Shown here in pieces: positions 14,330 to 53,139 of a stretch of DNA of 64,000 bases (the stretch's first letter is position 1; every line of letters starts with the position of its first letter). The notes beneath the pieces are model-generated. The model was not told the DNA's origin. It was given only the letters and a program-made list of their open reading frames with translations, and ran no database searches. The position numbers and the translations under genes are program-made. Location of the stretch: the NCBI GenBank assembly GCA_017610005.1, contig JAFCCU010000007.1, positions 21,414 through 85,413 on the forward strand, read 5' to 3'. The stretch comes from Candidatus Woesearchaeota archaeon (GTDB taxonomy: Archaea; Nanobdellota; Nanobdellia; Woesearchaeales; B29-G15).

Positions 14330-14488
14330 ATGGCAAGGAATAATAAAATCTCAATGCCCTCATCTTCGGGAGGAATCGTAAGATATTTTGACGAAGATAA
14401 GTCCAAGATTAGAATTAAACCAGGTACTGTGATAATCTTAATTGGAGTTGTAGTTGTAGTTGAGATATTAATGCACACTCTTTTGTAA
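14330..14488 (+). CDS. secG: preprotein translocase Sec61-beta subunit (52 aa; not in ORF track)
   Basis: MARNNKISMPSSSGGIVRYFDEDKSKIRIKPGTVIILIGVVVVVEILMHTLL. Confidence 0.9.
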   Translation: MARNNKISMPSSSGGIVRYFDEDKSKIRIKPGTVIILIGVVVVVEILMHTLL

Positions 14489-38099: not shown

Positions 38100-38458
38100 A
38101 TCAAAAGAAGACAAAAGAGAAGGTATTATCGTTTTTACTTGTCTTTTTGATATTACTTGTACCGATATCTATCTTAACTTCACCCAAAGAATCTAATGTT
38201 GTAATTACGGGCCTTTACACTGAAGAGTTTAATAAGTCTGCTCAACTGGTATCTTTCAGGGTTAAAAGTAATTCTGAATCAGATCTTCATTGCAAACTTA
38301 GAATTGAATTGTTTAGGCAGAAAGTGATGGTTGATAAGTTTTTCAAGGAGGTTGGTTTTATCCCTTCAATGGGGATCGTAGAAAAAGAAATGATTTTAAG
38401 AGCGCCCTCTGGAGAAAACGATTTTTTACTTACTCCTGAATGCTGGTCAGTTAATTAA
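38084..38458 (+). CDS. hypothetical membrane-anchored protein
   Basis: N-terminal TM VLSFLLVFLILLVPISIL. Confidence 0.65.
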   Translation: MESLLNQKKTKEKVLSFLLVFLILLVPISILTSPKESNVVITGLYTEEFNKSAQLVSFRVKSNSESDLHCKLRIELFRQKVMVDKFFKEVGFIPSMGIVEKEMILRAPSGENDFLLTPECWSVN

Positions 38459-39622
38459 GGGGTCTTTCCCGTAAATTTCAGCAATTGCTTTTGATCCCCC
38501 CCTACATCTTAGGAGGAGTTTACATTTTTCACATTTTTTAGGTACATTTGATAAGTTTCTTAATTGTCTCCATTCTTCACTATTCCATGCGTTATAAAGA
38601 GATTTAATATCCCCATAGGTTTTAGGAGAGTAGTAGCTAGGTTTTATTTTTCCATTAGTTGACACTACCATTCTGTTTGCCCCATCATCATAAACTCCCC
38701 CGCAAGATATCAATGTTAATTTTTCATTAAGGCAAAGGGGGATTGCATTGGCAATTTTAAATCCTTTACCGTATAATAAATTTAATCTAAAGATTTCTTC
38801 AATTGCAAATTTTAAATCTGGGTTAGCAACATTCATTGGTCTATAAAACTCAAGTAAGTATTTATCAGAATAAAGTTTGTAATATTCTTCAAGTTTTTTG
38901 ATATTCTCATTTGTTAAGACTATCCCCCCCCTAAGGACCTTTACACCTTCTAATTCGGGGGTACTGTTGCCATGAAATGAGATTAAAACATTATCAATAT
39001 TCTTTTTTATAAATTCCCCCATTTTTTGATCAATTAATGTGCCATTAGTATTAAGCCACACATGAAAACCAACTTTCTTTGCAAAATTTACCATTTCAAT
39101 AAAATCTGGATGAAGTAGGGGTTCGCCACCTGTAAATCTAATAAAATTAACATTCATTTCTTTTGTTTGCAAAATGATATTTTTAATTACATTTAGTGGA
39201 AGATTCTTCCTTTCTTGTCTTTTATCTAAATTGTAGGAGTATTTATTAAAGCAAAATTCACAGTTTAAATTACAGTTATCAGTTACTTCAATTACTACTT
39301 CTTTGGGAATATCTGGGATACTTTTTACAAGATGCTCAGATTCTTTGAAAAAACCATTACAATGCAAATTAAATTTACAAGAGAAACATTCTTTATTTTT
39401 AATTTTCTCTTTACATGGCGTATTGTCTAATAAGAAAAAATGGCTCTCAAACAGACACATTGGAAGTTTAGGGAATTTTAAATTAATTAGATGAGAATAT
39501 TGGGTAATTTGAAAGAGGTAGCTTATGAATTCTGATTTTTTTAAAGATGTATTTAGGTTTATTGTAATATCTTTTCCCCCTGCTGCATAAGATTTTTTAA
39601 ATATTGAAGAAAAATCTTCCAT
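38447..39622 (-). CDS. radical SAM/SPASM maturase (HxsC-like candidate)
   Basis: CNLNCEFCF; FTGGEPLLHPDF; SPASM-like CGGVYDDGANRMVVSTNGKIKPSYYSPKTYGDIKSLYNAW...CEKCKLLLRCRGG; located beside HxsB/HxsD-like genes. Confidence 0.8.
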   Translation of the reverse strand: MEDFSSIFKKSYAAGGKDITINLNTSLKKSEFISYLFQITQYSHLINLKFPKLPMCLFESHFFLLDNTPCKEKIKNKECFSCKFNLHCNGFFKESEHLVKSIPDIPKEVVIEVTDNCNLNCEFCFNKYSYNLDKRQERKNLPLNVIKNIILQTKEMNVNFIRFTGGEPLLHPDFIEMVNFAKKVGFHVWLNTNGTLIDQKMGEFIKKNIDNVLISFHGNSTPELEGVKVLRGGIVLTNENIKKLEEYYKLYSDKYLLEFYRPMNVANPDLKFAIEEIFRLNLLYGKGFKIANAIPLCLNEKLTLISCGGVYDDGANRMVVSTNGKIKPSYYSPKTYGDIKSLYNAWNSEEWRQLRNLSNVPKKCEKCKLLLRCRGGSKAIAEIYGKDPLIN

Positions 39623-39658
39623 AAATTAAATTAATAGAAGACTTTATTTAAAGTTTAC

Positions 39659-39997
39659 TTAATAGCTAGAATGATGAACAACCATGTTCCCTGAGGCAGT
39701 ATAAGAGATTGTGACATTACCTAACTCTGTCTCATAAAATTTTTCTTTTATTACTGTGTCAGAACCCATAGTCGTTTCGGGAGATTGAATTGCTTTACTA
39801 AATCCTATTGGGTAAATTCTTCCCTTAACAGCTTTTAGAGAAATTGCAGCCCCGATTGCAGCCCCGCCAACAATCGACCCCACAGTTAATGCACTTTGTT
39901 TAGAGATCTGACCGCGTTCACCCTTCACAAAAGAGTTAATATCTTTTCTTAATTTAGGTAGAACTCCTTTCTTTTTTATTCCTCTTTTTGATTTCAA
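39659..39997 (-). CDS. candidate RiPP precursor (HxsA-like, C-terminal VVHHSSY)
   Basis: 112 aa; LRKDINSFVKGERGQISKQSALTVGSIVGGAAIGAA...; overlapping H-x-S tripeptides HHS and HSS at C-terminus; between the two rSAM maturases. Confidence 0.65.
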   Translation of the reverse strand: MKSKRGIKKKGVLPKLRKDINSFVKGERGQISKQSALTVGSIVGGAAIGAAISLKAVKGRIYPIGFSKAIQSPETTMGSDTVIKEKFYETELGNVTISYTASGNMVVHHSSY

Positions 39998-40031
39998 TCA
40001 GTGCACCTTTACCAAATAACATTAATATTGT

Positions 40032-41354
40032 TTATAAATCTTTTGTTTCAGCCCATTTAAGGAACATCTTTTCGTATGATTTTTCTGAAAAAAATTTCTC
40101 AAAGAGGAATTCAAATTGGGCCATAACAACCTTACAATCAAAATTACCGATTTTAGGAATTGGAGAACCTGTTTCTGCAAAACTTGCTACCGGGCACACC
40201 CCGCAAAATGGTTTAAACGCGCATCTTTTGCAAAAAAGAAGTTCATTTTGAGAGCACTTAATAATTCCTTTTCCTGAATGGATTATATCTTTATAATCTT
40301 CTACTACATTGCCTAACTTAAAGACATCATCTTCAATCATCCTGCCTTCATCACATGTGTAAACATCTCCATTGTATTCATAAGCAAGTTGAGATATAAC
40401 TGCCCCACAAGGGCTTTCTAAATCAGTAAAAAGAGGATTCTCATTTAAAATTGCTTTTTTTATAAGAATAGTAGTATACACTTCACTTATTTTTTCATTT
40501 ATTAAAAGATTAATTAGTTCTTTCCAAAATTCAATATACCTCTCGGGAGAGACTTTTTCATCCTTGCCCTTTCCAATTGCCCTAACTGGCTTAACCCAAA
40601 TGCGGCTAAATCCGAACTTTTTATACTCTCTAATAATTTCTTTTGGGTATTTTAAAGAATCTTTTGAAATCACAGCAATTGCAGAAAGATTTTGTCTCAT
40701 CCTTTTTTGAATAATCGGAATCCATTTTTTTAAGGCATCGTAGCTTCCCGGTCTATTTTTTTCTTGCAATTCTCTTGGACCATCAAGGGAAGTGCAAAGC
40801 CAGACTCTATTTTTTACTAGGAAATCCAGTTTTTCATTGGTAAGCGCAGTCAAATTACTAACCATTGTAAATTGAATTTCTTTATCTGTTTCCCTTGCTT
40901 TTTTTATTGCATAATTAACAATATACTTAACAATCTTAAAATTTAAAAGTGGTTCTCCTCCTTGAAATTCAATTTTTAAATTCTTTTTTGGACTTTTGAA
41001 AATAAAATCAACAACATTTTTCGCAGTTTTCTCAGTCATATCAAATTCATTTGTATTAACTATTGGTGCCTGGCAATATTTGCAAAGAAGATTACACCTT
41101 CTTGTGGGTACTACTATATGGAGGCTTGGGCCAATAAATATTTGAGCTTTGTTTCTTCTGTAGTTTCTGATTATGCTTTCTTTATTTGCATTAGTTACAA
41201 TTATCCCATTTTCTTCTAGAATCTGATGAAGTTTTTTAGTATATTTTTTTGTTTTAAACAACAGATAGTCAGATTTATTTAAGATTACATAGGACCCAGC
41301 ATCATTTGTTATTAGATAACTATTTCCAATCCGTTTGACCCTTGCATTAAACAT
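40032..41354 (-). CDS. radical SAM/SPASM maturase, HxsB-like
   Basis: RRCNLLCKYCQ; IEFQGGEPLLNF; SLDGPRELQEKNRPG; CGAVISQLAYEYNGDVYTCDEGRM...CSQNELLFCKRCAFKPFCGVCPV. Confidence 0.82.
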   Translation of the reverse strand: MFNARVKRIGNSYLITNDAGSYVILNKSDYLLFKTKKYTKKLHQILEENGIIVTNANKESIIRNYRRNKAQIFIGPSLHIVVPTRRCNLLCKYCQAPIVNTNEFDMTEKTAKNVVDFIFKSPKKNLKIEFQGGEPLLNFKIVKYIVNYAIKKARETDKEIQFTMVSNLTALTNEKLDFLVKNRVWLCTSLDGPRELQEKNRPGSYDALKKWIPIIQKRMRQNLSAIAVISKDSLKYPKEIIREYKKFGFSRIWVKPVRAIGKGKDEKVSPERYIEFWKELINLLINEKISEVYTTILIKKAILNENPLFTDLESPCGAVISQLAYEYNGDVYTCDEGRMIEDDVFKLGNVVEDYKDIIHSGKGIIKCSQNELLFCKRCAFKPFCGVCPVASFAETGSPIPKIGNFDCKVVMAQFEFLFEKFFSEKSYEKMFLKWAETKDL

Positions 41355-41589
41355 TCTGCATAATCCCTAAACAATAATTAAAGAATTCAAGTCCTAATTC
41401 AGTTAAGTCAAATCCTTCATCTTTTGGAGTCATTGTAATTATATACTCTCCTTTGTCCAAATCTAAATTAATAAAAGTAGATTCAGAAAAAGCTTCGCTT
41501 GCAAGAAGTATTGCTTTTTTTAAATAAATTTCAGAATTAAGATAGAGAGTTACAACATTATTTTTATGATCCACATTAATGTTTTTCAT
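41347..41589 (-). CDS. divergent HxsD-like small protein
   Basis: VTLYLNSEIYLKKAILLASEAFSESTFINLDLDKGEYIITMTPKDEG aligns by eye to the neighbouring HxsD-like protein. Confidence 0.6.
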   Translation of the reverse strand: MKNINVDHKNNVVTLYLNSEIYLKKAILLASEAFSESTFINLDLDKGEYIITMTPKDEGFDLTELGLEFFNYCLGIMQNV

Positions 41590-41896
41590 CTTCTTCACAG
41601 CTTGATAATGCAGTCTTAATTAATGCGTCAGATATCTCTTGTTGTTTTTTTGATTCCATCGTGTATACTTGAGATGAAATCAATTCATTTCCAAATTCCA
41701 ATGCAAGGCTGTTTACATCTCCCTTGCCTTTTGGTTTAATTGTTACAGTTATTTTACTATCTGGGTCTCCACTTAAGATAACATAGGCTTTATCAGTCAT
41801 TGTGTAGGCTGCATTTAACACTGCCTCAAGAGAATATAGCTCTGGATTAACAAAAAACTCTGCAAAATCATCATATAATTTAACATTCTCAACCAT
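41576..41896 (-). CDS. HxsD-like small protein
   Basis: VNPELYSLEAVLNAAYTMTDKAYVILSGDPDSKITVTIKPKGKGDVNSLALEFGNELISSQVY pattern of HxsD. Confidence 0.7.
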   Translation of the reverse strand: MVENVKLYDDFAEFFVNPELYSLEAVLNAAYTMTDKAYVILSGDPDSKITVTIKPKGKGDVNSLALEFGNELISSQVYTMESKKQQEISDALIKTALSSCEEDEKH

Positions 41897-41927
41897 TAAA
41901 AACCCCAAGCGAGAATAACTTAAATTG

Positions 41928-47804: not shown

Positions 47805-48662
47805 ATGGGCAAAATTCCTATTAAAAAAATTATTCCTTGTGTAATCATAATAATTCTTATTTTAACTGTAATTATTGGTCTTTCCCTTATCCCCCCTAAA
47901 GAAGAATGGGTTAGTGATTCTTTTAGGGAGATGTACTTCTTAGAGGGGATGGAATATGAAGAGTTTATTGAAGGTTTTGCTATTGAATGCCCAGATATTG
48001 ATACTTGCCCAATGGAGACCCTGGCCATTCTAGCATCAAAAGCTAAAACTGAAAATTATCCCATTGAAGAGATTCCAGGCATAGGGGCAATAAAGGAAAG
48101 GGCGCAAAAATTGCTTTTGAATTCAAGGCAAAATATTAATGATCCAGAGGTTTTTTGGAATCTTCATGATTCAATTAAAATTGTTAAATATTTAGGAGGG
48201 TTTTCAAGAGAAGATGTTGATTCTTGGTTAATTTTTTTAGGAGAGTTAAGGATCAAAGAATTGTGTATTGAACTTTATGAAGCGGAACCAGTCAAGGAAG
48301 GAATTAGTAATTATGGGTTTTCAATGGATACCTTAGAAGAATATTCCACATTTTGTAGATTAAGGAGGTTTAGTACGATTAATTTCTTGTCAATTGAGGA
48401 ACCACCAAGTGTAACTTATTATAAAGATAAGGTAGAAGATTATGATTCGGTCTATTTTGATATTTGTCAAGATCTTAGTGAGATAAATGCTAATGGAGAA
48501 ATTCATTTAACAACCCTCTGGGGGTTAAATTTCTTGGTAAATCATATTTACTGTAATTTAGCATTAAGCCCAAAAGATGCGAAAATTGTTGAAGATGTTA
48601 AAAATGCGGATGCAGAGTCTTCAGAGATGGCAAGAGTCAAACAAGTGCTTGAGTTATTTTAA
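47805..48662 (+). CDS. hypothetical membrane-anchored protein
   Basis: N-terminal TM IIPCVIIIILILTVIIGLSL. Confidence 0.6.
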   Translation: MGKIPIKKIIPCVIIIILILTVIIGLSLIPPKEEWVSDSFREMYFLEGMEYEEFIEGFAIECPDIDTCPMETLAILASKAKTENYPIEEIPGIGAIKERAQKLLLNSRQNINDPEVFWNLHDSIKIVKYLGGFSREDVDSWLIFLGELRIKELCIELYEAEPVKEGISNYGFSMDTLEEYSTFCRLRRFSTINFLSIEEPPSVTYYKDKVEDYDSVYFDICQDLSEINANGEIHLTTLWGLNFLVNHIYCNLALSPKDAKIVEDVKNADAESSEMARVKQVLELF

Positions 48663-49421
48663 AAAATATTTTATTTCTAGTATTGTGTGAGCAAATCCTT
48701 TTTTTATGAGATAGATTCTTGGGTGGAACAGCATTAAGAATAGAAAGTGGAAAAATGTATTTTTCTTGGAACTTATTTTTCTAAAAAAGAGATTTACAAT
48801 CATTTGTTTGTAAGTAAACTTTTTTGGCAATTTAAAAAAGTGATTTATAAATTCAGTACAATTATGTTTAATCGCAAGTTGTTCAAATAAATTCCATTTA
48901 AAGTCTTTCTGGGTTAGTTGGGTTATCCTTTTTGAATTAAGTTTGAAGCCCATCCCAAAATCTTTAAAATACATAGATATGATAAGATAAATCGCTTCAA
49001 ATTCTGGCCTTAAAATTTTTATTTTCCCCCATTTTTTACTGTACTCTAACCAGATTTCATTTTCAGAGATATTAAAAGGATTTGATTTGTCAAATAATGC
49101 CCAGTGAAGTTCCATTGCATGTTTAAATTTTTTGTGAGTGTAAACATAATGGAATCCAAAGTTATTTAGGTAGTTTAAAGAGAAAAATTGGGTATAATCC
49201 AAATAACCTGCAGCAATAATACTTTTTTGACATTTAATTAGGTCTTTTTTTTTAATGAGAATGTCAATATCTACTGAATTTACTAAGGATTTTGGGTCAT
49301 TGAGGGCATCTTTTGCCCCTTTAAGAAAAATTACTGGTACATTAATAATTGAAATTAAGTATTGAATTTGTTTAGTATAGTTTTTTGTTATTAATACCTG
49401 GGTGATTTTTGAATGATCCAT
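48654..49421 (-). CDS. NTP_transf_5-like nucleotidyltransferase
   Basis: VIFLKGAKDALNDPKSLVNSVDIDILIKKKDLIKCQKSIIAAGYLDY...AMELHWALFDKSNPFNISENEIWLEY pattern. Confidence 0.75.
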   Translation of the reverse strand: MDHSKITQVLITKNYTKQIQYLISIINVPVIFLKGAKDALNDPKSLVNSVDIDILIKKKDLIKCQKSIIAAGYLDYTQFFSLNYLNNFGFHYVYTHKKFKHAMELHWALFDKSNPFNISENEIWLEYSKKWGKIKILRPEFEAIYLIISMYFKDFGMGFKLNSKRITQLTQKDFKWNLFEQLAIKHNCTEFINHFFKLPKKFTYKQMIVNLFFRKISSKKNTFFHFLFLMLFHPRIYLIKKGFAHTILEIKYFLK

Positions 49422-49586
49422 AATATCTTTTAAGAATTAGTTTGCCTTATTAAACTTTTTATGTAGCTCCCAAAAATACCTTAAATTACTTTGGTTTGAC
49501 CATTTGCACTGAAAATTAAAATATAATAACAAAACTGAAATTATTATAGATAAAATTTAAATACGCGAGTTAGGAACTTAATACTA

Positions 49587-49850
49587 ATGAGACTTTCCGA
49601 TAAGGTTGAATGGTCAAGGGAAGAAGGGAAAAACTTTTTGATTAGTTTTGAATCAGGGAAACTTTTCTCCCTTAATGAAACTGCAAGTAGGATTGTTGAG
49701 TTAATAGGGGAAGGGAATGGAACTAATGAGATATTATATTCATTGGGAAACGAATTTGATGTAGATAAAGAAAAGTTAACACTAATTGTTAATAATTTTA
49801 TTACTCATTTAGAAGGCGAAGGGATAATTATTAGAGGAGACAAGAATTGA
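49587..49850 (+). CDS. PqqD-family / RiPP recognition element (RRE)-like protein
   Basis: FLISFESGKLFSLNETASRIVELIGEGNGTNEILYSLGNEFDVDKEKLTLIVNNFITHLEGEGII. Confidence 0.85.
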   Translation: MRLSDKVEWSREEGKNFLISFESGKLFSLNETASRIVELIGEGNGTNEILYSLGNEFDVDKEKLTLIVNNFITHLEGEGIIIRGDKN

Positions 49851-50668
49851 AGAAAGGAGGAATAACTATTGCAGGAATCAGTATGGAAATTGAGTTTAGC
49901 TCAAACATTTTGTTTGAAAAATTTTTCTCTGTACATAATGCTTGGAAATCCCCAGAAGCAAATTCAGATTATCATATCCAGCTTGAATTAGATCCCATTG
50001 TGAGGAAGGTTAAGGGGGCAACTTTTAATGAATCAAGGGGATGGGTGCATTCAGTTTCAGATGCATGGGATATTAGATACAATCAAAAATTAAAAAAGTT
50101 TTTTGTTAAGATTAATAATAGCTTCTTAGAAGAAAAAAAGTGCCTTTTTCCTTTTTTGAGGATGATCTATGCAATTGCATTGAATGAGAATGAAGGGTTT
50201 ATTTTGCATGGTTCAAACATAGTATTAGGGGATAAGGCGGTTGTTTTTAGTGGTCCAAGCGGGGCAGGTAAGACAACAATTGCACGAAATTGTAAATCTT
50301 CTGTATTAAATGATGAATGTTCTGTTATCCGCGGTTTTGGAGATAAGTTTATTTGTTATGGTAACCAGCTAGGGGGGGACAGGGATGTTATCTCTTTAAA
50401 TCAAGAGGCAGATTTAGAATTAGTTTATTTTTTGGATGGTTGGGGAGAGAATATATTAGAAGAATTAGCTCCATCTCAAAGTATAAAAAAACTTATGATA
50501 AATGACATTTTTATGATGTATTTTGTTGGAACGCCTGGCGCAAGCGACTATTTAAAAAGAGAGTTTACTAATTTGAATAAAGCAAATAAATATCTAAATT
50601 TCCTTTCCTTGAAACTAAAAAGAAATGTAGATTTCTCGAAAGTATATTCTCAGTTAGAGATCAGTTGA
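49847..50668 (+). CDS. HPr kinase/phosphorylase-like P-loop kinase
   Basis: GFILHGSNIVLGDKAVVFSGPSGAGKTTIARNCKSSVLNDECSVI; overlaps PqqD-like stop. Confidence 0.8.
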   Translation: MKKGGITIAGISMEIEFSSNILFEKFFSVHNAWKSPEANSDYHIQLELDPIVRKVKGATFNESRGWVHSVSDAWDIRYNQKLKKFFVKINNSFLEEKKCLFPFLRMIYAIALNENEGFILHGSNIVLGDKAVVFSGPSGAGKTTIARNCKSSVLNDECSVIRGFGDKFICYGNQLGGDRDVISLNQEADLELVYFLDGWGENILEELAPSQSIKKLMINDIFMMYFVGTPGASDYLKREFTNLNKANKYLNFLSLKLKRNVDFSKVYSQLEIS

Positions 50669-50848
50669 TTAAATAAATGTGAAAAATAACGTTTATAGTT
50701 TGGGGAAAGATACATCCTACCATGGGTTCCCAGTCCAGGGATTAAGGCCCTTATGATATGAATTCTCGTATTCTTCAATGTGAGAAAGCTTTTAATTTTT
50801 TTGGAAATTGTGATTTAATTATTTAAGGCCATATTTAAAATGGAAAAA

Positions 50849-50857
50849 CTTATAAAC
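50849..50857 (+). promoter_or_regulatory. TATA-box-like element for small ORF 50879-50974
   Basis: cttataaac approximately 26 nt before the ATG. Confidence 0.45.
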
Positions 50858-50878
50858 TAATTTTCTTTAACTAAGTTT

Positions 50879-50974
50879 ATGGCCAAAAAAGAGAGTAAAA
50901 AAAAGTTCGAGAATCCAGAGATTATCTTTATCGATAAAGTTGAACCAAGTATTGTCTCAGCCGAGTTTTCTTAA
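50879..50974 (+). CDS. 31-aa candidate RiPP precursor peptide (not in ORF track)
   Basis: ATG...TAA translation MAKKESKKKFENPEIIFIDKVEPSIVSAEFS; FENPEI resembles YxxPxL leader motif; next to PqqD, HprK-like and NTase genes. Confidence 0.55.
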   Translation: MAKKESKKKFENPEIIFIDKVEPSIVSAEFS

Positions 50975-51320
50975 ATAATCTTAAAATTATTGTTTTTAGT
51001 ACAAATAATCTTTCTTTAAAGTTGATTGTAACTTTTGCCTTGCCAATATAATTTATAAATTTCCAGGGCCTATCAAATGAGCCATTATTATCCCCCTTCG
51101 TAATCGCTTTTTCCCAAATTTTGAAGTAGTATCTATGGAGCACTAGTTGGTTATTTGATAAATAAAGGACTATATCTCCAAACTTAGGCATTGCTGTGGG
51201 GTCGATTGTGATTTTTTGCCCTGGTTGGATTTTAGGTAACATACTAATTGAAGTTTTACTGAGTTTTAATGTTCCATCCCTTTTAAGATATTTTTTGATT
51301 AATTTCTTTTTAACTTGCAT
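50928..51320 (-). CDS. S24/S26 (signal peptidase-like) serine peptidase
   Basis: TSISMLPKIQPGQKITI...KFGDIVLYLSNNQLVLHRYYF...AITKGDNNGSFDRPW. Confidence 0.78.
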   Translation of the reverse strand: MQVKKKLIKKYLKRDGTLKLSKTSISMLPKIQPGQKITIDPTAMPKFGDIVLYLSNNQLVLHRYYFKIWEKAITKGDNNGSFDRPWKFINYIGKAKVTINFKERLFVLKTIILRLFKKTRLRQYLVQLYR

Positions 51321-51396
51321 ATATTGAATATTTTACTATAATATTTATTATTTTGTATTAGAAGCATATTTATACTAATTATTCTTGGGGAATTGA

Positions 51397-53139
51397 GTGA
51401 AAACAAAAATTTGGTTATTATTAATCTTAATTATTCTACAGTTCTTTTTGATTAATCATTATATGCCCATATCTGAAGTTATTACCCCTCAACCAATCGT
51501 AAATGATGATTATCCATTGCACCTTTATGATGTGCTGCTTCATAGAGAATCAATCCTCTCAGGTAATTCTGAATTTATTGTTTTTGGATATGGTCAGAAA
51601 GTGTTGTATGTGGCTGGATTGTACAAGTCAATGGGTGTGGCAATATTAAGTCTGATGTTTCCTATTAATGTTGTTGTATTCTTTAAGATTTATTTTTTTG
51701 CAATGTCTCTTTTTCTTCCTCTTTTAATATATTTTTCAGGTATCAATTTTGGCCTAGAAAAAAAAATAGCATTTATTTCCGGATTATTTTCAATAGTACT
51801 TTGGAATTTTTCCAATCCAATCCATTCAGAGGTTTATTATGGATTAATTCCTTACCTTTTTTTAATTCCAGTTTGGATTTTGGGTATCTCTTTTTTTAAC
51901 TTATTTAGGCAGGAAAAAAAGGAGAAGTATTTAATTATTGGTACAATCATTTTGGCCTACACATTTTTTATGCACCCTTTTTTCTGGGTTCTTTCAGTTC
52001 CAGCTATTTTTTTAATGTTTTTATTTTCAGGACCGAAGCATAGATTGGTGCTATTTGGAATAGTAGGAATCTTGATTGTAGTTGTAGTTCATATAGTTAT
52101 GTTTAGGGCAAGTATTAATCTCCCTTCTAAAGAACCAATGTTTCATCAAGGAAAACTTGATGCGCTAATCAGCGAGCTGATTTTTTCCCCTATTTACATA
52201 ATTTCCCTTATTCTAGGTATTTGGGGGGTGATTATTTCAAAAAATAAAAATTTTAAATTAATTGGAGGGGGAGGGATGATTTTCCTTTTTTGTTTAGGAT
52301 ATCTTGGAAATTATTTCCCTATTAATTTTCTTCAATTAAGTAGGGCCACGTTTGCGTTGTCTTTCCTTTGTACTATCCCTTCTGGGTTGGCGCTAATAAC
52401 AATTTTTCAAAAGAAAAAAGTTTTAGTAATTCTTGGAATATTTGCGTTAATCTACATTTTTATTTCGCCATATTCAATCACAGAGCAATGGGAAAAAACA
52501 ATTTCTACAGAAATTCCCCCTCATTTGGAAAGTTTGATTGATTGGATTAGGGAGAACGGTGAAGAGACAATTTTATTTGAGACATCTGGTGCCAAAACAA
52601 ATCATTTTTATCTTGGCCATATAAATATCCTATTTCCACAGATATTAAACATGGAGTTTGCAGGTAACCCTTACCCCTATATTGGTAGCTCAAATAATTT
52701 TTATTTTTCAAATTTTTACGAAGGAATTTTGCATGATTCGCCCATAAGTAATTACACTTGTAGTTCATTAAATAGGGTTTTCAATGTTTTTAAGATAAGA
52801 ACGATTGTTGCATTTACTCCAGAAAGTCAAAGTAAGTTTTTTGAATGTGGGTTTTTGGAATCTAAAACAATTAATGTTGAAAGTGGGGGAGAGATAAGGA
52901 TATACAAAATAAATTCTTCTCATCCAGAATTTTATGATGGAAAATCAAGTTTTACTTTTTCAAAGAGAATGATAAACTCCTCTTCTGAATTTGTTATATT
53001 GAGGCAGAGATATTACCCCTCATTAAAAACCCTTGAAGGCTTTAAGCTGTATCCTGTGAAGGTAAATATCTTTAATAATTATAGTATAGATTTTGTGAAA
53101 GTTGAAAATAATATGAAACCCTTCACTTTAACTAGCTAA
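51397..53139 (+). CDS. polytopic membrane protein, GT-C glycosyltransferase-like
   Basis: Multiple TM segments; NDDYPLHLYD after first TM. Confidence 0.6.
   Translation: MKTKIWLLLILIILQFFLINHYMPISEVITPQPIVNDDYPLHLYDVLLHRESILSGNSEFIVFGYGQKVLYVAGLYKSMGVAILSLMFPINVVVFFKIYFFAMSLFLPLLIYFSGINFGLEKKIAFISGLFSIVLWNFSNPIHSEVYYGLIPYLFLIPVWILGISFFNLFRQEKKEKYLIIGTIILAYTFFMHPFFWVLSVPAIFLMFLFSGPKHRLVLFGIVGILIVVVVHIVMFRASINLPSKEPMFHQGKLDALISELIFSPIYIISLILGIWGVIISKNKNFKLIGGGGMIFLFCLGYLGNYFPINFLQLSRATFALSFLCTIPSGLALITIFQKKKVLVILGIFALIYIFISPYSITEQWEKTISTEIPPHLESLIDWIRENGEETILFETSGAKTNHFYLGHINILFPQILNMEFAGNPYPYIGSSNNFYFSNFYEGILHDSPISNYTCSSLNRVFNVFKIRTIVAFTPESQSKFFECGFLESKTINVESGGEIRIYKINSSHPEFYDGKSSFTFSKRMINSSSEFVILRQRYYPSLKTLEGFKLYPVKVNIFNNYSIDFVKVENNMKPFTLTS

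Follow-up and report, generated by a model that had tools for sequence, protein, structure and literature searches.

Very probably, the 31-codon open frame analysed here is a genuine gene for a precursor from which a small modified peptide (RiPP) is made, and its product is likely to be a short linear phosphopeptide whose precursor would be bound by an RRE, phosphorylated by an HprK-like kinase and cleaved by a SipW-like peptidase. The frame was studied in its window, the whole stretch of 64,000 nucleotides of archaeal DNA that was analysed, and the features of the locus were collected in Table 1.

Table 1. Positions of the candidate precursor gene, its promoter element and the genes of the surrounding insertion in the window.
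Feature	Position	Strand	Remarks
Candidate precursor peptide, 31 aa	50879..50974	+	ATG...TAA; K-rich leader start, F10xxP13xI15
TATA-like promoter element, TTATA from -29 relative to ATG	50850..50856	+	Leaderless spacing
Insertion with five genes, 2.7 kb	48663..51396		Flanking genes adjacent in same-genus G002
NTP_transf_5 nucleotidyltransferase, 255 aa	48654..49421	-	PF14907 1.4e-15
PqqD-type discrete RRE, 87 aa, leader-binding	49587..49850	+	PF05402 1.6e-11
HprK-like kinase, 273 aa	49847..50668	+	H121, P-loop K142, D156 invariant
Archaeal-type signal peptidase I (S26/SipW-like), 130 aa	50928..51320	-	TIGR02228 9.3e-9; S26/H62/D77

Re-translation of the frame gave MAKKESKKKFENPEIIFIDKVEPSIVSAEFS, in which F10-ENP-E-I15 conforms to [Y/W/F]xxPx[L/I/V] and residue 31, the C-terminus, is Ser, so that the short ORF, the FxxPxI motif and the terminal Ser of the original prediction were all recovered. 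Ser24, Ser27 and Ser31 were the candidate phosphorylation sites, and neither Cys nor Thr was found in the core. The convergent arrangement with the S26-like gene, also claimed before, was seen as an overlap of 47 nt (50928-50974), which takes in the stop and the 15 codons before it and limits the core sequence. Since FENPEI and the rest of the first 16 codons lie outside the S26 gene, the motif cannot be explained as an antisense artefact. When 61 genomes were searched with the 31-aa peptide, only the self match and chance-level matches were obtained, as expected for leaders so short and divergent. The cluster was absent from both same-genus genomes, and no orthologue of the ORF was available for codon-level conservation.

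The TATA-like element and leaderless start proposed upstream of the ORF were borne out, as TTATA stands at the spacing usual for this genome. TATA-like words before ATG clustered at -30 to -26, with 43 of the 89 occurrences in that 5-base bin; a TATA-like box preceded 46% of 63 genes, where shuffled sequence gave about 10%, while sites of Shine-Dalgarno type were rare (8%). From this peak and the rarity of Shine-Dalgarno-like sites, leaderless transcription was taken to be the local norm. Of the other short intergenic ORFs, 85 in all, just 8 had such a TATA box. The TATA boxes and leaderless starts, together with FEN1 and class III signal-peptide pilins, point to an archaeal organism. Elsewhere in the window, an unlisted 52-aa ORF resembling SecG/Sec61-beta (14330-14488, plus strand) was also preceded by a TATA box at leaderless spacing.

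The five genes were recognized as one insertion because the orthologues of the flanking genes (47805-48662 and 51397-53139) nearly abut in the same-genus genome G002, only 42 nt apart; PqqD and NTP_transf_5 were absent from G002 and from the other same-genus genome, G001. Within the insertion, PqqD and the kinase are flanked by the divergent NTP_transf_5 gene on one side and by the ORF with the convergent peptidase on the other. Nothing convincing was found when repeats were sought at the borders, no exporter gene was present in the insertion, and the sole PF00664 match of the genome sits on another contig. H121, K142 and D156 of the kinase were kept in five archaeal homologues, with weak HMM matches, and structure prediction of the kinase gave only a low-confidence model (pLDDT 34). 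The kinase-only scan of the genome collection gave no matches, the two-kinase alignment matched only G045's own contig, and the kinase profile met only P-loop matches among PDB sequences. For the peptidase, the TIGR02228 match is under the curated cut-off and S26, H62 and D77 were conserved in the alignment.

PqqD was found in 6 of the 362 genomes of the order. All five of the other PqqD genomes carried HprK and NTP_transf_5 and three of them the S26 peptidase; radical SAM genes were located at four of these loci (G129, G131, G143 and G045), and NTP_transf_5 was single-copy in each PqqD genome, bar one weak second match in G045. The original prediction had proposed looking for the same short ORF near PqqD/HprK pairs in relatives, and a Lys-rich leader-like peptide with YxxPx[IL] was indeed present at 5/5 of the other PqqD+HprK loci, four times intergenic (MIKKDSYEKPTIKKIG... 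in G129, MMKKKTLEYEKPTLKLI... in G131, MKKKYKKPDIKKF... in G143 and MHKKKKEYVKPKLICI... in G045) and once as a tail fused to the C-terminus of PqqD (YETPRLVKFEDMQ... in G090). Most archaeal relatives had radical SAM genes and Cys/Thr-rich cores, and for this reason their chemistry may differ. Several peculiarities were also noted: a natural PqqD-precursor fusion with a C-terminal YETPRLVKFEDMQDLLLLDPVHEVHEQQGWP tail on the RRE, adjoining HprK and NTP_transf_5 (L014, 6810-7253, minus strand); a 540-aa glycosyltransferase-HprK fusion adjoining PqqD in G131 (L012, 6717-8339, minus strand); and contig C40 of G045 (L049), the apparent public record of which is titled Candidatus Aminicenantes bacterium although the genome groups with the archaeal order, possibly a mislabel or binning error.

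The leader criterion required an ATG start, 20-60 aa, a position mostly outside longer ORFs and [YFW]xxPx[ILV] early, within the first residues, with at least two K/R before it. Applied to 284 kb of control DNA, it gave 3 matches, none like the locus peptides. At the six PqqD+HprK loci (window included), exactly one match was obtained at five, the sixth being the PqqD fusion, and under the fixed criterion a leader-like peptide was found at 0/6 loci with one partner only, namely L019 and L021 (PqqD without HprK) and L082-L085 (NTP_transf_5 without PqqD/HprK; L083 is a 5.6-kb contig). For the difference between two-partner and single-partner loci the Fisher test gave p = 0.002 including the fusion and 0.015 without it, and the comparison is partly a fresh test because the criterion already stood when the NTP_transf_5 loci came to light. 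After anchoring of the archaeal leaders on the motif, hydrophobic residues were present at +9 in 6/6 and at +12 and +15 in five of six each; these positions lie outside the selecting motif and were matched by shuffles in about 0.5% of trials. At the level of sequence, the locus comparison supports the earlier claim of a precursor with an RRE-binding-type leader motif beside PqqD/HprK.

The structure model of PqqD (pLDDT 87) was nearest to the lasso B1-leader complexes of TbiB1 (5v1u, TM 0.82) and TfuB1 (6jx3, TM 0.79). In complexes of known structure the leader Tyr is held by an acidic residue of the RRE. For LppB this is D70, through a hydrogen bond; the bend at the Pro is fixed by N33, and F74 packs on the Pro (PMC13381572). 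N30, I67 and F71 of the window PqqD align with N33, D70 and F74 of LppB. The D70-equivalent was D/E in 13/13 Tyr-leader pairs (G045, G143, G131, G129, G090, Butyrivibrio, two of B. thuringiensis, Halopiger, Paracoccus, Sulfitobacter, TbiB1 and TfuB1), Q in 3/3 Trp pairs (PbaB1, Priestia and Paenibacillus) and I opposite the Phe of the window, a residue with no hydroxyl available for bonding. All pairs with an identifiable leader were taken in, and Phe/Ile is a single case. The leader and PqqD of the window thus appear matched, on one Phe case, and because leader residue matches RRE residue, the ORF is tied to its neighbour beyond the features by which it had been selected.

The closest known system is that of the linear polyphosphorylated peptides (LPP; lppA/K/B/S/D/N; Nat Commun 2026;17:6633, PMC13381572). 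In Paenibacillus, LppB presents LppA, LppK puts up to four phosphates on one core Ser, which sits near the core start, the leader is removed by the SipW-like LppS (S29/H68/D93) in an RRE-dependent manner, and LppN was without effect in the heterologous host (PMC13381572). The window cluster has in common with LPP the discrete RRE, the HprK-like kinase, the NTP transferase, the archaeal-type signal peptidase and a short precursor with an aromatic-xxPx[V/I] leader, and both are without cyclase or B2. It differs in its archaeal host, in the Phe/Ile pair where LPP has leader Tyr and RRE Asp, and in a very short core, whereas LPP precursors span 35-200 aa. The cluster was classed as LPP-like rather than LPP because an MsbA-like exporter is missing and the full leader YxxPxVLxHQxIxFETxxS is unmatched, the HQxIxFETxxS extension being absent. 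Among bacteria, an analogue was seen in Butyrivibrio with the gene order HprK-(MKKAYVKPEL...)-PqqD-S24/S26. An HprK-related kinase adjoining a PqqD protein is also the mark of HPr-rel-A (TIGR04352/TIGR04353), but the scores of both window proteins, 15.5 of 200 and 20.8 of 35 bits, fall far short of its curated cut-offs. In the open-access journal literature covered, the term "linear polyphosphorylated peptide" occurred in PMC13381572 only, and no report of such archaeal clusters, whether in connection with PqqD, HPr kinase or lasso peptides, was met; a survey of archaeal RiPPs mentions lassopeptides across archaea with no PqqD/HprK detail (PMC12144867).

The original prediction had pointed to a lasso product, and a paeninodin-like lasso precursor with its cyclase encoded elsewhere was weighed on this account. 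The leader motif, the HprK-type kinase, the NTase, the PqqD-type B1 and the terminal Ser are common to the window and the paeninodin/pseudomycoidin systems (PadeK, ThcoK, PsmK/PsmN), the Ser follows Phe as in precursors ending in ...TFS, and three PF00733-matching places exist elsewhere in the genome. Against this, the PF00733 macrolactam cyclase was absent from the cluster and from the contig of the window, the B2 leader peptidase (PF13471) was absent from the genome (92% complete), where an SpI-type peptidase stands in its place, and the Thr-2 signature was missing. The leader is FxxP and not WxxP, and the proline-contacting RRE position is Asn (N30, the YxxP type) rather than the Gly of paeninodin; compared with the lasso leader [Y/W]xxPx[L/I], the window has FxxPxI with what seems a matching RRE residue, I67. 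The lasso system was rejected for want of the cyclase in the cluster and of B2 in the genome, and we regard such a precursor as most improbable. A candidate archaeal phospho-lasso system was observed on a Halopiger plasmid, where a lasso precursor-like ORF (MSGNKDSSQYSPPELTEYGSIESVTEQ...; L088, 6635-6796, minus strand), absent from the plasmid gene table, adjoins HprK, asnB, B2 and PqqD.

Equally remote is a radical-SAM-dependent RiPP whose maturase is encoded elsewhere, for instance the Hxs maturase at a distance of about 9 kb. Radical SAM genes do accompany four of the related clusters, but the insertion holds none, Cys and Thr are both absent from the core, and the Hxs genes are present both in the window's genome and in G002, which is without the insertion. 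This His-Xaa-Ser radical-SAM peptide system (38447-41908, minus strand; HxsB TIGR03978 1.3e-109) comprises two HxsD-type proteins, a second radical SAM protein and an HxsA3-like small protein (2.3e-4), adjoins class III signal-peptide pilins and what appears to be a prepilin peptidase, and was conserved in G002 and partly (HxsB and small proteins) in G143. Somewhat less remote, though still unlikely, is a chance open frame in the intergenic gap, with PqqD, HprK, NTase and peptidase acting on another substrate. The frame has just 31 codons and a 47-nt overlap with the S26 gene, and there is no orthologue to show codon-level conservation. This reading was rejected on the control-DNA rate of 3 per 284 kb and on the locus controls, every comparable locus having a matching peptide and no partial locus any; the TATA box at exact leaderless spacing and the matching leader and RRE residues also argue against it, and the other ORFs of at least 30 aa in the insertion gaps were only TTG-start frames, all without the motif.

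For the phosphopeptide precursor, the following route is proposed by analogy. The Lys-rich leader F10xxP13xI15 would pair as a beta strand with PqqD, and its Phe would enter a pocket lined by I67, the usual acidic residue being replaced, as judged from the LppB, TbiB1 and TfuB1 complexes. Presented by the RRE, the peptide would then be phosphorylated by the HprK-like kinase on a Ser of the C-terminal region, most likely S27 or S31. Both are likely acceptors by comparison with known systems, and phosphorylation of the terminal Ser is plausible: Ser31 is preceded by Phe, and phospho-lasso precursors at plasmid loci end in ...TFS, TLS, TIS or FES. A terminal Ser is not common to the other archaeal precursors, the ends of which are A, C, E or C. 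PsmK/PsmN act on the terminal Ser of pseudomycoidin, first by phosphorylation and next by glycosylation (PMC9266682), and in the window the phosphate may likewise receive a further group from the nucleotidyltransferase. The S26/SpI enzyme is probably the leader peptidase, as in LPP, and would strip the leader, so that a linear phosphopeptide some 3-6 residues long would remain. Cleavage after I25, in the LPP register, would give VSAEFS; the product would be EFS if the cut fell instead behind A28, at a V-x-A signal-peptidase-like site.

Tiny unannotated ORFs adjoining PqqD/HprK pairs are easily overlooked. The cluster ORFs of B. thuringiensis and Halopiger were unlisted in the PLSDB gene table, which is incomplete, and the original records may list them. 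On B. thuringiensis plasmid pHS18-3 (L086, 4510-5179), five tandem copies of MNYTSPTIKxVxSKGSASCACGxLVGNGNS, absent from the plasmid gene table, were observed upstream of radical SAM-PqqD-S24/S26.

LPPs were stated to be confined to Bacillota (PMC13381572). The present locus would extend this phosphopeptide pathway to archaea with about the smallest imaginable gene set, and would add Phe/Ile as a third leader-RRE specificity pair beside Tyr/Asp and Trp/Gln. We put at about even chances the wider proposal that DPANN-like archaea possess a linear phosphopeptide pathway, minimal and horizontally moved, with an archaeal-type signal peptidase as its leader peptidase and with a shift of leader and RRE to a Phe/Ile pairing expected to be orthogonal to the Tyr/Asp and Trp/Gln systems.
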